This document shows, piece by piece, positions 3,242 through 55,089 of a stretch of 64,000 bases of DNA. Position numbers and translations under genes: made by a program. The first letter of the stretch is position 1; the number at the start of each line of letters is the position of its first letter. Origin of the DNA: Catellatospora sichuanensis (GTDB lineage Bacteria > Actinomycetota > Actinomycetes > Mycobacteriales > Micromonosporaceae); assembly GCF_007483665.1 (NCBI RefSeq), contig NZ_ML660183.1:186001-250000 (forward strand), read 5' to 3'. Below the pieces are notes generated by a model. That model was not told the DNA's origin. It saw only the letters and a list, made by a program, of their open reading frames with translations, and did no database searches.

Positions 3242-3967
3242 ATGACATTCGCGAAGATCGAACGACGATCACTGCCCGGCGAGGTCTACGACCGCGTGCT
3301 CGGCGAACTCGTCGCCGGCTCGCTCGCCCCCGGCCAGGCGCTGCCCAGCGAACGGGCCCTCGCCGAAGCGCTCGGCGTCAGCCGCCCCGCCGTACGCGAG
3401 GCGATCGGGCGCATGGCCCACGCCGGCCTGGTCAAGGTCCGCCAGGGCGGCGCCACCACCGTCAGCGACTTCCGCCGCACCGGCGGCCTCGACATCCTCC
3501 CCCACCTGCTGCTGCCCGGCGGCGACATCGACCTCACCGTCGCCCGCAGCATCCTCGAAGCACGCCTGGCGATCGGCCCCATCGTCGCCGGGCTGGCCGC
3601 CGAACGCCACGGCCACAACAACGCCGCCACCCTGGACGCGGCCGTCGCGGCCATCGAGACCGACACCGACCCCGTCGGCCGCCAGCGCCAGGCACTGGCC
3701 TTCTGGGAACACGTCGTCGACGCGGCCGACTCCGTCGCGTTCCGGCTGATGTTCAACAGCCTGCGCGCCGCCTACGAACCTGCCCTCGTAGCCCTGTCGA
3801 CCGTCATGGCCGACGAGGTCAACCGCGTCGGCGACTACCGCGCCCTGGCCCGCGCCATCACCACCGGCGACGCCGACGATGCCCGCCACCAGGCCCACGA
3901 ACTGCTCAGCCACGCCACCCAGGCCCTCCTGCACGCCCTCGACCTGCTGGAAGGAGACCGACCATGA
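3242..3967 (+). CDS. FadR-subfamily GntR transcriptional regulator
   Basis: A 241-aa regulator. The N-terminal winged HTH (residues 9-75) includes LAPGQALPSERALAEALGVS and RPAVREAIGRM, the typical GntR signature. The C-terminal all-helical FCD ligand-binding domain spans about residues 90-230 and retains candidate metal/ligand residues such as the His of FWEHVVDAAD and the late H in DDARHQAHELLSH. A FadR-like operator lies just upstream, so it probably represses itself. Its stop overlaps the ATG of the fatty-acid-hydroxylase-like gene (ATGA), which links the regulator to lipid metabolism. The effector is unknown (acyl-CoA or a small organic acid). Confidence 0.88.
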   Translation: MTFAKIERRSLPGEVYDRVLGELVAGSLAPGQALPSERALAEALGVSRPAVREAIGRMAHAGLVKVRQGGATTVSDFRRTGGLDILPHLLLPGGDIDLTVARSILEARLAIGPIVAGLAAERHGHNNAATLDAAVAAIETDTDPVGRQRQALAFWEHVVDAADSVAFRLMFNSLRAAYEPALVALSTVMADEVNRVGDYRALARAITTGDADDARHQAHELLSHATQALLHALDLLEGDRP

Positions 3968-20874: not shown

Positions 20875-21016
20875 CCATCAGACGCGTCGTGCCCGCCCGT
20901 CCACATAGCTTGAGCGGGTCGGAGATCTCCTTCCAGGAAGAGCTTCCGACGCCGCTTGCTTGATCGACTATTGTGGCTCCTTCGGGCGCGAGCGGTCGAA
21001 GACCACGGGGGTTCAC

Positions 21017-21778
21017 ATGGCGACAAACGGCAACGCCCTGCTCAGAATCAGTCTCATCGGTACCCTCCTCGCCGCCGGCGGGTGCGGCGGCGGCGAGGCA
21101 CCCGACCCGACGGCCTGGCCGAGCACGGCCGTGCCCTCGCCGACCCCCGACCAGGCGCGGGAGGACTTCCTGCAGGCGCTGCAACGCACCCACCGCGCCG
21201 CCTACCGGTACACGGTGCGGGGCGATCTGCCCGAGGGGGCCGACGTCCAGGCCACGGGCGCACATGATCCGGCAGCACGACTGTTCGAAGTCAAGGTCAC
21301 GGTCAATGGCACGGCGAGTCCGTCGGCCACCCATCGAATCGTGACGGGCGAGCACAACTACCTGCGGGACCTGGACGACAAATTGTGGGTACACCTGGAC
21401 CTGAGCCGCATGAGCCAGGACAGCCTCGTGTACTTCGACATGAGCGACCCTGCCGGCCTGGCCAGGTTCAGCTCATCGATCGGGTCCGTGCGCAGGACGG
21501 GCCCGAACGCCTACGCGGGCCGGTTCAACCCCGAGAAGAACCACGTCAAGCACTTCATCCCGGTGGGCGCACCGACCATCTTCACGTTGGGCGTCCTGTT
21601 CGCGGACTTCACTGCCACGACCGACCGCGGCTGGATCACCTCGATCACCGTCGAAGTCGACCCCAAGGGCCCGCCGCTGCACATAACGACGGAGTTCAGC
21701 GGCCACGGCACCAAGATGCAGATCAAGGCTCCGCCGAAGGCGCAGGTCCGGGAGGCCAACATCTCCTATTACGAGTAG
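21017..21778 (+). CDS. Secreted lipoprotein (LppX/LprG-like size)
   Basis: A 253-aa lipoprotein. The signal peptide ends with lipobox LAAGGC (Cys near residue 23), so the mature protein is anchored to the outer face of the membrane. The remainder is a beta-rich domain of about 200 residues with a pattern like the LppX/LprAFG lipid-carrier or outer-membrane-lipoprotein-sorting fold (YRYTVRGDLPEGADVQ, HNYLRDLDDKLWVHLDLS). No catalytic motif is seen. ATG 21017 follows a G-run; the frame extends to 20960. It ends before a strong terminator. Confidence 0.75.
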   Translation: MATNGNALLRISLIGTLLAAGGCGGGEAPDPTAWPSTAVPSPTPDQAREDFLQALQRTHRAAYRYTVRGDLPEGADVQATGAHDPAARLFEVKVTVNGTASPSATHRIVTGEHNYLRDLDDKLWVHLDLSRMSQDSLVYFDMSDPAGLARFSSSIGSVRRTGPNAYAGRFNPEKNHVKHFIPVGAPTIFTLGVLFADFTATTDRGWITSITVEVDPKGPPLHITTEFSGHGTKMQIKAPPKAQVREANISYYE

Positions 21779-52768: not shown

Positions 52769-53500
52769 ATGGCGAAGCTGAACCAGATCATCGCGGTCGA
52801 GAAGGGCATCAAGAGCCGCTCGTTCCAGGACCTGACCGAGGCCCACCACGCCGTGCAGAAGCCTGCGCTGCTGTCGGGCATCTCGCGCACGTACCAGGCC
52901 AAGGACGAGGAGGGCGAGCAGCTGCCGCCGGAGTCCACGAAGGTGCAGACCCGCGCCGAGGACGTGCTGCGCCAGATCGGCACCACCCTGACCCGGCTGT
53001 TCGACGTGACCGCGGCCAAGGACGCGACCAACTGCGTGGCCCGCGCCGACGTGGTCGTCGACGACCGGGTGCTGGTGTCCGACGTGCCGGTGACCTACCT
53101 GCTGTTCCTCGAGAAGCAGCTCACCGACCTGCACACGTTCGTCAAGAAGCTGCCGGTGCTCGATGCCGCCGAGTCGTGGGTGTTCAGCGACTCCGCGGAC
53201 TGCTGGTCGACGGAGCCGGTGCGCACCATCCGCACCAAGAAGGTGCCCCGCAACCACGTCAAGGCCGAGGCGACCGAGAAGCACCCGGCGCAGGTCGAGG
53301 TGTACTACGAGGACATCGCGGTGGGTTACTGGACCACGGTGAAGTTCTCCGGCGCGCTGCCGGCCAAGCGGGTGTCGACGCTGCTGGAGCGGGTGGAGAA
53401 GCTGCAGCAGGCGGTCAAGTTCGCCCGCGAGGAGGCCAACAACGCGGAGGCGGTGGACAAGCACGTCGGCGACCGGGTCTTCGGTTACCTGTTCGCCTGA
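52769..53500 (+). CDS. Conserved hypothetical protein next to tRNA-like RNAs
   Basis: A 243-aa soluble protein, alpha/beta, not assigned to a family by me. It has well-conserved-looking features: a helical start (KLNQIIAVEKGIKSRSFQDL), VPVTYLLFLEKQLTDLHTFV in the middle, basic TIRTKKVPRNHVKAEATEKH, and a C-terminal helix (KRVSTLLERVEKLQQAVKFA). Some basic patches could bind RNA. ATG 52769 has CGGGAGG upstream. It lies immediately before the two permuted tRNA-like RNAs on the same strand and so is a candidate partner. That role is inference. Confidence 0.7.
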   Translation: MAKLNQIIAVEKGIKSRSFQDLTEAHHAVQKPALLSGISRTYQAKDEEGEQLPPESTKVQTRAEDVLRQIGTTLTRLFDVTAAKDATNCVARADVVVDDRVLVSDVPVTYLLFLEKQLTDLHTFVKKLPVLDAAESWVFSDSADCWSTEPVRTIRTKKVPRNHVKAEATEKHPAQVEVYYEDIAVGYWTTVKFSGALPAKRVSTLLERVEKLQQAVKFAREEANNAEAVDKHVGDRVFGYLFA

Positions 53501-53510
53501 CCCATGAACT

Positions 53511-53528
53511 CCCCGCCGGAGGGCGGGG
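53511..53528 (+). terminator. Hairpin downstream of the hypothetical gene
   Basis: CCCCGCC (53511-53517), GGAG loop and GGCGGGG (53522-53528) form a 7-bp stem, 10 nt after the stop codon and directly before the RNA genes. It can separate the mRNA from the RNA units. Confidence 0.6.
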
Positions 53529-53543: not shown

Positions 53544-53677
53544 GCTGAAGTTGAAGCCGAAACTGAACAACGCGGTCACAGTGTGGGTTCGAGTCCCACC
53601 CCCTGCACCACCTGCGGGGGTAGCCCAACTGGCAGAGGCAGCCGCGATCAGACTCAGATTCTCGCTCCAGACTCAGC
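53544..53677 (+). ncRNA. Permuted tRNA-like RNA, unit 1 (YrlA-type Y RNA candidate)
   Basis: The parts of a tRNA lie in permuted order. Anticodon-type 3' strand GCGGT (53572-53576); T-arm GTGGG-TTCGAGT-CCCAC (53583-53599); acceptor 3' strand CCCCTGC (53600-53606) followed by A and CCA; loop ACCACCT (53607-53613); acceptor 5' strand GCGGGGG (53614-53620), pairing 7/7 with one G-U at the third pair; TA; D-arm GCCC...GAGGC (53623-53639) with GG in its loop; anticodon-type 5' strand GCCGC (53641-53645). The flanks 53544-53566 and 53654-53677 pair further. GCCGAAA (53556-53562) resembles the Ro60/Y-RNA motif. Confidence 0.75.
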
Positions 53678-53681
53678 ATTC

Positions 53682-53844
53682 GCCGCCGAACACCAGATCG
53701 ACCGCGTACGGGCGAAATCCCCGAGGTGCCGGTTCGAGCCCGGCCCGCACCTCTTTCCTGGTGCGGTAGTCCAAACGGTAGAGACACGGGGTCTTCACGG
53801 CTGACCCGTTCGCTTAAACGTGCTGGTGTGTGCAATTCGGCGGC
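53682..53844 (+). ncRNA. Permuted tRNA-like RNA, unit 2 (YrlA-type Y RNA candidate)
   Basis: The order is as in unit 1. Anticodon-type CCCCG (53719-53723), 4-nt variable loop, T-arm GCCGG-TTCGAGC-CCGGC (53728-53744), acceptor CCGCACC (53745-53751), loop TCTTTCCT (53752-53759), acceptor GGTGCGG (53760-53766, 7/7 Watson-Crick), TA, D-arm GTCC...GAC (53769-53785), then CGGGG (53787-53791, 5/5 with CCCCG). Outer helices: ACGGG/CCCGT (53708-53712 with 53805-53809), CACCAG/CTGGTG (53691-53696 with 53823-53828) and GCCGCCGAA/TTCGGCGGC (53682-53690 with 53836-53844). GGCGAAA at 53711-53717 is the Y-motif-like sequence. Confidence 0.78.
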
Positions 53845-53850
53845 ACTCCG

Positions 53851-53881
53851 AGGCCCGGGAGAGGGACAATCTCCCGGGCTT
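53851..53881. terminator. Terminator after the RNA pair
   Basis: A 10-bp perfect core (GCCCGGGAGA / TCTCCCGGGC), extended by a G-U and an A-T pair, with a 7-nt loop and a T-rich tail (CATTTCTTT). It ends the RNA transcript. It also follows the convergent beta-helix gene stop. Confidence 0.85.
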
Positions 53882-55089
53882 CACCATTTCTTTCGGCAGG
53901 TCGTATTGGCCAGGCCTTTCGTGGCGCCGGTGACGGTGTTGTCGCAGCCGACGATGTTCGCGGCGACGGGTGCGAGGTGGAAGCCCCAGCCCGGCCCGGC
54001 TACGTCGGCGGTGTTGCGGGTGAACACGTTGCGGTCGCCCCAGCCGTCGGCGACGCGGTGGGTCTGGAAGCCGTCGCCGCGCGAGTGGCGGCCGGTGTTG
54101 CCGCGGATCAGCCAGCCGTTGCCTTTGACGTCCACCCACGAGTCGGCGAACGAGCCGGTCATGGCCGCGCCGTCGAACGTGTTGTCCTCGACGGTCCCGC
54201 CGGTGGTGCCCTCCTTGACGTCGACGGGTTCGGCGGTCACGGCGCTGATCCGGTTGCCGCGGATGATGTTGCGGTCGCTGCGGTCGGGCTCGCAGCCGGT
54301 GACGTCGCACCAGTTGCCCGCCGCGGTGCCGACGTAGACGCCCTCGCCGAACTGCGCCTTCCGCAGGCCGGTGGCGCGGACGGTGCTGTGCTGCACCACG
54401 TTGTCGGAACTGAAGGCGCGCAGGTGGATCGCCTCGTCGCCGACGTGTTCCACGGTCAGGCCGGTGAGCACCGCGTGGCTCGTGCCGTCGAACATGACGC
54501 CCTTCTGCGCGTTGCGGACCGTGAACCCGGTCAGCCGCCAGTGGTCCGCGCCGTGCAGGTGCAGGGCGTACCCGTGGCCGGTGCCGCCGCCGTCGAGCAC
54601 CGCACCGGCACCGCCGCACAGGTGCACGGGTTTCGCGGCGGTGCCGGGGGTGGTGACGGCGAAGCGGCCCTCGTACACCCCGTCGTTGAGCCTGATGCTG
54701 TCGCCGGGCCGGGCCCGCGCCAGCGCCGCGGCCAGCGCGGATGCGTCGCCCACGGTCACCGTGGCGAGCGGGCAGGCCTCAGCGGGCCGGATAGGAGACC
54801 GGCCCGGAGCAGGCGCGGCCGTGGTGCCCGCCGGCGTGCCTGCCGTCGAGGTCGTGGTGCCGGGCGTGGACCCGCCGCCCCTGGACGGCGGGGTGGCACC
54901 GGGTCCGGTGGACGCTCCCGGCTGTGGCCGCCCGCACGCGGCCAGCGCCATGAGCAGCAGGACGAGCATCCCTGCCAGCAGCGACGTCGCGGCGAACGGC
55001 AGCACCCACGCAAGCCCGCGCGGGCGCTGCCCCGGCCGACGGGCCTCCGGCTCGCTGGTGTCCGGCACGTCGGTGGTCGGGTTGCTCAC
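53881..55089 (-). CDS. Membrane-anchored right-handed beta-helix protein
   Basis: A 402-aa protein with a short cytoplasmic start, a membrane helix near residue 30-52 (ATSLLAGMLVLLLMALAACG), a Pro/Thr-rich linker and a parallel beta-helix from about 105 (VTVGDASALAAALARARPGD, RLNDGVYEGRFAV). Later coils carry the repeated N-x-x-x-x-N pattern (GNRISAVT, VEDNTFDGA, GNGWLIRGNTG), typical of NosD/alginate-epimerase-like polysaccharide enzymes. A lyase, epimerase or binding role is possible. GTG 55089 overlaps the upstream gene stop (GTGA). Third gene of the polysaccharide operon. Confidence 0.8.
   Translation of the reverse strand: MSNPTTDVPDTSEPEARRPGQRPRGLAWVLPFAATSLLAGMLVLLLMALAACGRPQPGASTGPGATPPSRGGGSTPGTTTSTAGTPAGTTAAPAPGRSPIRPAEACPLATVTVGDASALAAALARARPGDSIRLNDGVYEGRFAVTTPGTAAKPVHLCGGAGAVLDGGGTGHGYALHLHGADHWRLTGFTVRNAQKGVMFDGTSHAVLTGLTVEHVGDEAIHLRAFSSDNVVQHSTVRATGLRKAQFGEGVYVGTAAGNWCDVTGCEPDRSDRNIIRGNRISAVTAEPVDVKEGTTGGTVEDNTFDGAAMTGSFADSWVDVKGNGWLIRGNTGRHSRGDGFQTHRVADGWGDRNVFTRNTADVAGPGWGFHLAPVAANIVGCDNTVTGATKGLANTTCRKKW

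Follow-up and report, generated by a model that had tools for sequence, protein, structure and literature searches.

What are the two tandem tRNA-shaped structures that lie directly downstream of a DUF7873 gene in the 64,000-nt stretch of DNA analysed here (the window, G000:C3:186001-250000 of a 9.45-Mb actinomycete genome), and with which protein would they act? The initial annotation of the window described them as circularly permuted tRNA-like RNAs of the YrlA type, that is, as Y RNAs of the kind that bind the Ro60-like protein Rsr. The structural part of that description is borne out by our analysis, the Rsr part is not. We propose instead that the DUF7873 gene and the approximately 375 nt that follow it probably form a two-part element, composed of a protein and of one structured noncoding RNA, which would assemble into a particle similar to those formed by Ro proteins and Y RNAs.

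The gene of the candidate protein partner (positions 52769-53500; Pfam PF25283, 396.5 bits) encodes 243 amino acids; its stop codon is at 53500 and the RNA region follows on the same (+) strand, as do all the parts described below. The first permuted tRNA-like domain (unit 1, 53572-53645) reads in the order anticodon-stem 3' strand, T-arm, acceptor 3' strand, loop with ACCA, acceptor 5' strand, D-arm, anticodon-stem 5' strand. GCGGT (53572-53576) pairs with GCCGC (53641-53645), the T-arm is at 53583-53599, CCCCTGC (53600-53606) pairs with GCGGGGG (53614-53620) with one G-U pair, U8-A9 correspond to 53621-53622, and the D-stem is formed by 53623-53625 and 53637-53639. The acceptor loop (53607-53613) starts with the discriminator base A73, whose conservation is described below, and an encoded CCA, so that ACCA is at 53607-53610, as had been noted initially. 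This domain caps an outer stem whose 5' strand (GCTGAAGTTGAAGCC..., 53544-53570) pairs through an outer and an inner helix with a 3' strand (TCAGACTCAGATTCTCGCTCCAGACTCAGC, 53648-53677) that is highly conserved in alignment A4. In unit 2 (53719-53791), CCCCG (53719-53723) pairs with CGGGG (53787-53791), the T-arm is at 53728-53744, the acceptor strands are at 53745-53751 and 53760-53766, and the D-stem at 53769-53771 and 53783-53785. The outer stem of unit 2 is made of a 5' strand at 53682-53718 and a 3' strand at 53800-53845 (GCTGACC...CTTAAACG...GGCGGCA), as delineated from alignment A5 and its pairing.

Every stem drawn in the initial annotation is found at its place. In both units the D-arm is intact and the distances between the stems are as in a tRNA: U8-A9 separates the acceptor from the D-stem, one base separates the D-stem from the anticodon stem, and six or four bases precede the T-stem. 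The two strands of the anticodon stem run on into the mutually pairing outer stems and there is no anticodon loop, so that neither unit is a complete tRNA. ARAGORN calls no tRNA in the window, which agrees with the expectation that a linear tRNA search would miss the units; when each unit is rotated to the normal order and provided with a generic anticodon loop, the same program finds a complete tRNA, and in the native order none. The 390-nt region folds better than each of 100 shuffled versions (z -4.18).

That these structures are there by chance is excluded by their recurrence behind DUF7873, with clean controls. We collected loci using the DUF7873 protein alone as a criterion: 80 bacterial loci (of at least 560 relatives) and 19 viral ones, which make 100 with the window. 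A permuted-tRNA descriptor applied to the 630 nt after the DUF7873 gene finds at least one unit in 95 of the 100 loci, and two in 61. The same descriptor finds a unit in 0/100 loci on the reverse strand and in 0/100 upstream of the gene (where some contigs are short), and mononucleotide shuffles give an expectation of 0.05 loci with a unit per 100. The loci missed by the descriptor are L021, L090, L091, L105 and L106: L106 ends inside the DUF7873 gene and has no sequence after it, L105 matches residues 1-120 only, and L021 is missed by the descriptor, yet matched by both of the covariance models described below. When acceptor loops of up to 74 nt are allowed, two or three units are found in 85 of 121 loci, one in 30 and none in 6, with at least two of these units being doubtful (in L094 and L100).

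ARAGORN calls linear tRNAs over descriptor units in 16 of the scanned loci, the window not being among them; we rejected such tRNAs as an explanation of the units, since 15 of the calls look like artefacts produced by a 3' half. These 15 are tRNA-Phe or tRNA-Leu over unit 1 of Streptomyces-type loci (L027, L034, L044, L057 and others) and a tRNA-Stop over unit 2 of the Klebsiella phage FBKp24 locus (L115), where the annotated tRNA-Sup-TTA (3518-3597) also overlies a permuted unit and looks like a 3'-half artefact too. In L100 ARAGORN calls a tRNA-Met that is probably genuine, the extra descriptor unit at this locus then being the false one.

Covariation in homologues supports both domains, double changes backing their T and acceptor stems. 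In unit 1 (alignment A2, 32 sequences), 89.5% of the cells are paired, 17 of the 20 pairs show changes on both sides, and the covariation score is 0.451, compared to 0.141 in shuffled and at most 0.142 in slid alignments. The values for unit 2 (alignment A3, 29 sequences) are 90.8%, 17 of 20, and 0.591 compared to 0.195 and at most 0.174. These sequences come from 43 prepared references, from which near-duplicates, long acceptor loops and poorly aligned sequences were omitted (L115 is in neither alignment, and L107, L109 and L111 are not in A3). A one-base shift in position makes the anticodon-type helix of unit 1 align poorly (58.3 and 60.9% of cells).

The longer interrupted stems on which the units sit were examined in bacteria only, using non-redundant subsets of the 66 bacterial loci where the descriptor finds both units (40 sequences in A4, 32 in A5), a choice that leaves the insert-less loci out. 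Double changes are numerous in the outer stem of unit 2, whose helices 1, 2 and 4 are paired in 87.7, 87.9 and 93.4% of the cells. In the stem of unit 1, the outer helix is paired in 97.2% of the cells and nearly invariant, with no double changes; the inner helix is paired in 79.1%, and two of its nine pairs are doubly changed. Helix 5 of the unit 2 window fold was discarded (38.9% paired), and so was a pairing of the GGAUA loop with an upstream UAUC, which, checked by eye, fails in some lineages. As far as a structure can be established by comparing sequences, the RNA consists of two tandem domains, each of which is an interrupted outer stem capped by a tRNA that has no anticodon loop and is read in rotated order.

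From A2 we derived a covariance model R1, and from A3 a model R2; the window, which belongs to both training sets, scores 151 bits with R1 and 181.3 bits with R2. All 61 of the 80 bacterial loci that are outside the training set match R2 end to end. With R1 both ends are matched in 61/61 held-out bacterial loci, 47 of which have the tRNA-like insert and 14 the outer stem only; many of the held-out loci are from Streptomyces close to members of the training set. In the 14 insert-less loci a short hairpin closes the retained outer stem; the loci where the unit 1 cap is seen to be replaced in this way are L023, L043, L047, L049, L050, L067, L068, L069, L076, L077, L079-L082, L123 and L128. A very weak unit 2 match elsewhere in the window (20920-21101, 17.7 bits) is probably due to chance.

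The distribution of the RNA follows that of the gene. DUF7873 is present in 7 of 396 genomes of the phylum, and full-length R2 matches (81 bits or more) occur in the same seven genomes and in no other, the remaining matches being at most 52.1 bits and covering the tRNA-like core only. Conversely, a DNA motif that was derived by eye from the outer stem of unit 1 in known members retrieves five viral contigs, and all five encode a DUF7873 protein just upstream (49-62% identity). Among the matches listed, the flanking open reading frames of 26 diverse loci have nothing in common except DUF7873 and its antisense frames. Judged from this co-occurrence, the RNA region is genetically tied to DUF7873. 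The nearest protein relatives among the matches listed are from Catellatospora (C. vulcania, 100% identity).

The association extends to phages. DUF7873 is found in 73 of 50,697 phage records (E<=1e-5), and the protein is hypothetical or unannotated in the 60 of these 73 that were listed. Fourteen phage records were fetched, of phages whose hosts belong to Arthrobacter, Gordonia, Rhodococcus, Pseudanabaena, Microcoleus, Rhizobium, Vibrio and Klebsiella; all have at least one unit after the DUF7873 gene according to the descriptor or to a model, mostly in a gap free of protein genes. In the Microcoleus phage (L112) the evidence consists of model matches (R1 57.7 bits; R2 30.3 bits, core only) with no descriptor hit. 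ARAGORN finds tRNA genes outside the units in 10 of the 14 phage loci (5.7 kb fetched; L115, whose sole call is over unit 2, was left out). In Gordonia phage Phendrix (L108), next to a large tRNA array, 572-1100 matches tmRNA with 89 bits, and this is missing from the annotation shown. A more distant DUF7873 protein (114.3 bits) occurs in Lak megaphages (L156, L157).

What sort of tRNA do the caps imitate? The D-arm of unit 1 is nearest to tRNA-Leu in 66/66 bacterial and 18/19 phage units, by comparison with 126 tRNAs from the fetched loci, a reference set that is uneven (11 Leu, 3 Ser, 3 Ala, 1 Phe), and the window unit is identical over 20 nt to one of these tRNAs. The same comparison gives no single isotype for unit 2. 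The discriminator of unit 1 is A73 in 55/58 distinct bacterial sequences and in 14/15 distinct phage ones. The initial annotation had seen alanine identity elements in unit 1 (G3-U70 with A73); we rejected an alanine identity, since only two of the 58 distinct bacterial sequences of this unit have G3-U70. From these comparisons, unit 1 has a Leu-like cap, which some loci have lost without losing the outer stem.

The acceptor loop starts with NCCA in 11/15 (unit 1) and 18/24 (unit 2) of the phage sequences, and in 28/58 bacterial unit 1 sequences. Its length varies widely, being 4-50 nt in unit 1 and 6-64 nt in unit 2, with a few doubtful long ones. In these counts and in those of the D-arm, units were assigned to type 1 or 2 by a simple D-stem rule, and the phage figures include the doubtful units mentioned above (the extra unit of L100 and the third unit of L094).

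Beyond the second domain, the RNA region ends in a 13-bp hairpin (53850-53886) with GGACA in its loop, followed by ACCA. In bacteria this 3' hairpin has 11-13 bp; the loop contains GG[AC][CT]A in 54 of 56 distinct cases and has seven bases in 38 of 56, and directly after the stem comes RC[CT] in 50 of the 54 loop-motif cases and NCCA in 22. In phages, where single-unit loci were counted as unit 2, 21 of 26 distinct rows give a hairpin and 5 none; 15 have the loop motif, and NCCA then follows in 5 of 15. The acceptor-T minihelix of a tRNA has 12 bp, a seven-base loop and NCCA: the 3' hairpin is like it in its measures, the letters of its loop not being those of a T-loop. It also resembles a terminator, but the conserved loop and the tail, which is mostly RCC or RCT in bacteria, suggest that it is more than a plain one. 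As for the other flanks, a GC-rich hairpin (53511-53528, from sequence and fold) lies just past the stop codon, and a hairpin of different sequence is visible by eye at the same place in the bacterial loci shown; the next gene beyond the RNA region codes for a beta-helix protein on the opposite strand.

The DUF7873 protein itself is little help in assigning a function. At E<=0.01 the window protein has no Pfam match other than DUF7873, hence no TROVE domain (PF05731), and no TROVE is found at E<=0.1 in six distant DUF7873 relatives. The AlphaFold model (28 aligned sequences; pLDDT 89.8, pTM 0.75) consists of long helices and a long beta hairpin. Foldseek returns no match at E<=0.001 in the PDB or BFVD; VIA-align lists no clear family, which does not exclude a family that it leaves unlisted, and its best Z score, 6.5 to TolC (rmsd 12.5, 158 aligned), is of a level that long helices can reach by chance. 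PADLOC and NCBIfam have no DUF7873 match, PHROGs gives weak matches only, for two of three proteins (E 0.13 and 0.23), and a sequence search of the PDB gives two at E 0.52. A crAss-like phage protein of unknown function (BFVD A0A7M1RW91) may share the DUF7873 fold (probability 1.00, TM 0.46/0.60, E 0.027). In the DUF7873 protein of the Vibrio phage of L114, residues 49-96 have a match to YicC-like_C, an endoribonuclease C-terminal domain, at 19.8 bits, below the cut-off of 27.

Based on these observations we propose the following mechanism. The region would be transcribed as one RNA, to which DUF7873 would bind, most likely at the outer stem of unit 1: this stem is the best candidate site because it is nearly invariant and kept even in loci where the cap is lost. 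In the complexes of Ro with Y RNAs, the protein grips the stem and the tRNA-shaped cap controls access or recruits a partner. The DUF7873 particle may work in a similar way, its caps offering enzymes that handle tRNA the shapes of a tRNA elbow and acceptor; since the caps have no anticodon loop, any mimicry must concern the elbow or the acceptor. A 3' hairpin ended by NCCA would also engage tRNA enzymes. The encoded NCCA and the variable length of the acceptor loops suggest that these loops are cut open, and it could be, more tentatively, that RNase P does so and leaves acceptor-like 3' ends. The phage element is often found among tRNA genes, which makes it likely that its use is to divert, sense or compete for enzymes that act on tRNA during infection or stress.

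A bolder version, which we regard as doubtful at present, sees here a new class of ribonucleoprotein, common to actinomycetes and many unrelated phages. Its protein, of unknown fold, would hold an RNA that has three acceptor-like ends: a tRNA-Leu-like cap, a second tRNA-like cap and a minihelix ended by NCCA. RNase P would open the two caps, so that an RNA lacking any anticodon would bear chargeable CCA ends and could serve to trap aminoacyl-tRNA synthetases and further tRNA enzymes, or to report on them, for instance to counter defences directed at tRNA.

A number of observations weigh against the proposal of a DUF7873-RNA particle. It is founded on the comparison of sequences and structures, from which we infer expression and binding; DUF7873 has no fold recognised as RNA-binding by Foldseek or VIA-align; and the promoter scan found no promoter-like site, so separate transcription is not indicated. 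The RNA is found by neither the descriptor nor R1 nor R2 in L090 and L091, which are near-identical, nor in L105, and no unit is seen near DUF7873 in the two Lak megaphage loci that were read (L156, L157). The Rhizobium and Vibrio phages have one clear unit only, and the model scores of the Vibrio phages are low (R1 22.3 and R2 22.6 bits for L114, R2 24.2 bits for L119), although both fit the descriptor. In the search of 396 genomes, scoring was limited to the top six first-look candidates of each, and a copy elsewhere may therefore have been missed. Regarding the structure, the descriptor that selected the units of A2-A5 demands T and acceptor pairing and thus favours those stems, so that the other stems count more, and the outer helix of unit 1 varies too little for covariation to be seen. 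NCCA is scarce in bacterial unit 2 (4/58), and acceptor loops of 6-8 nt can simply be loops.

Could the region merely be a regulatory 3' UTR, the DUF7873 protein binding and controlling its own mRNA? The position would fit, since the RNA is downstream on the same strand and the first unit usually starts 40-250 nt past the DUF7873 stop codon, and so would the absence of a promoter-like site in the scan and the terminator-like 3' hairpin. Two full tRNA mimics, often with an encoded NCCA, and a minihelix-like end exceed what autoregulation needs, however, and in Microcoleus phage L112 the matches are approximately 1.8-2.2 kb past the DUF7873 gene, beyond another annotated gene. We therefore consider this explanation unlikely.

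Equally to be considered is the idea that the units are permuted precursors of working tRNAs, whose loops are cut and whose product is charged (for unit 1 the enzyme might be LeuRS, which recognises its tRNA without reading the anticodon) for a use other than decoding. A73, the encoded CCA and the Leu-like D-arm of unit 1 are what one would expect of such a precursor, and the range of loop lengths in both units, a few doubtful long ones aside, is as of a spacer that is removed. On the contrary, the anticodon loop is absent and the anticodon stem continues as a long outer stem, CCA is rare in bacterial unit 2, and unit 1 has no long variable arm, which is typical of tRNA-Leu. These features make the precursor hypothesis improbable.

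The hypothesis that the units are YrlA-type Y RNAs acting with an Rsr protein encoded elsewhere in the genome was the starting point of this work. A permuted tRNA-like domain on an interrupted stem is indeed what YrlA RNAs look like, and the rsr gene that the initial annotation proposed to look for does exist: the sole TROVE match of the genome is at G000:C2:440868, on contig C2, the window RNA being on contig C3 beside DUF7873 (TROVE is present in 54 of 150 genomes of the bacterial family, this one included). The covariance-model search suggested at the outset gave a divided answer. At a relaxed threshold YrlA is the best match (unit 1 27.2 bits, E 0.0011; unit 2 18.3 bits, E 0.43; 601 bases searched), but at the Rfam gathering threshold, which is 69 bits for RF02553, nothing is found in the window RNA region. 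Such a score below the cut-off is not decisive, because the RNAs linked to rsr in the same genome are also under 69 bits.

More telling is that this rsr has YrlA-like RNAs of its own right next to it (48.1, 40.6 and 32.7 bits), and that the gene adjoining the window RNA is DUF7873. In L158 (G000:C2:437500-443500), upstream of the TROVE gene at approximately 1016-1600, three tandem capped YrlA-like RNAs are seen, two of which have UUCG acceptor loops, along with, by eye, a further stem copy that has no cap. Among 31 TROVE loci of the bacterial family, 21 have a permuted unit, with 24 units in all. A conserved stem (GGTGC[GA].../...GATCTC or CTC[GC]GG) is present in 21 of these 24 units, a figure that is partly circular as the motif was read off rsr-linked loci, and in 3 of 202 DUF7873-linked units, a contrast that is not circular. 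The rsr-linked acceptor loops have 4-9 nt and start with NCCA in 2 of 21. The 3' Ro-stem letters of the Rfam consensus occur in 0/40 DUF7873-linked unit 1 and 0/32 unit 2 sequences. The GNCGAA sequence seen in the window units as a sign of Rsr binding is not general in unit 1, being in the 5' flank of 4 of 40 loci; in unit 2 it is in the 5' flank of 17 of 32, at varying places. An Rsr-dependent RNA is, on this evidence, very improbable.

Last, it is hardly credible that the region is a permuted tmRNA in two pieces, or the relic of a tRNA that was inserted: the rotated order is as in permuted tmRNA genes and the T-arm matches the tmRNA model at 10.2 bits, but the genome has an ordinary tmRNA (146.2 bits), both units keep their D-arms, and the conservation of a covarying structure over bacteria and distant phages argues against a relic.

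If a DUF7873-RNA particle is indeed formed, it has several implications. To our knowledge, the tRNA mimicry of bacterial Y RNAs has so far been tied to a single protein family, Ro60/Rsr. Here a tRNA is grafted through its anticodon stem onto a longer RNA beside a protein that is not Ro60, twice per RNA in most loci, and the element spans bacteria and phages, the latter with hosts among actinobacteria, cyanobacteria and proteobacteria. The DUF7873 family, which has no assigned function, becomes a testable candidate for an RNA-binding protein. The element may account for some odd tRNA calls in phages, such as the tRNA-Sup of Klebsiella phage FBKp24, and it makes directly testable the question of why phages that have large tRNA arrays carry a tRNA-shaped RNA that is unable to decode.

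How does the element compare with what has been described? According to the available text of a survey of jumbo phages, ROT/TROVE proteins, which in cells act with a tRNA-like partner, are present in some phages; the DUF7873 element is not covered there (PMC7824862). Neither "tRNA-like" nor "permuted" occurs in the main text of a catalogue of 104 candidate RNAs from 2010. The element is not described, and DUF7873 is not named, in the literature searched, outside of which lie most subscription journals and key papers on bacterial Y RNAs. The RNA appears to be a separate, undescribed family that resembles Y RNAs.

Three known systems are similar to it in part. In two-piece tmRNA, the gene order is rotated and a loop that contains CCA lies between the acceptor strands; the window RNA shares these three features, and differs by its full D-arms and its two tRNA-like domains, the tmRNA model matching the T-arm only. 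Permuted tRNA genes have the 3' half ahead of the 5' half and a spacer between the acceptor strands, as do the window units, which unlike them have no anticodon loop and have the anticodon stem fused to an outer stem. Such genes are reported from algae and archaea in the available parts of two papers (PMC3978253, PMC3218864).

The closest system is YrlA with Rsr/Ro60 (RF02553; PF05731). In both cases a permuted tRNA-like cap is placed on an interrupted stem, the gene of a protein adjoins the RNA, and the RNAs are sometimes in tandem. We set the DUF7873-linked RNA apart from the Rsr-type Y RNAs because no rsr adjoins it and it has no Rsr-type stem: its protein neighbour and its conserved stem are different ones. 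It also combines two unlike domains in what seems to be one RNA with a conserved hairpin at its 3' end, and its acceptor loops are very variable in length and, in phages, often start with NCCA.
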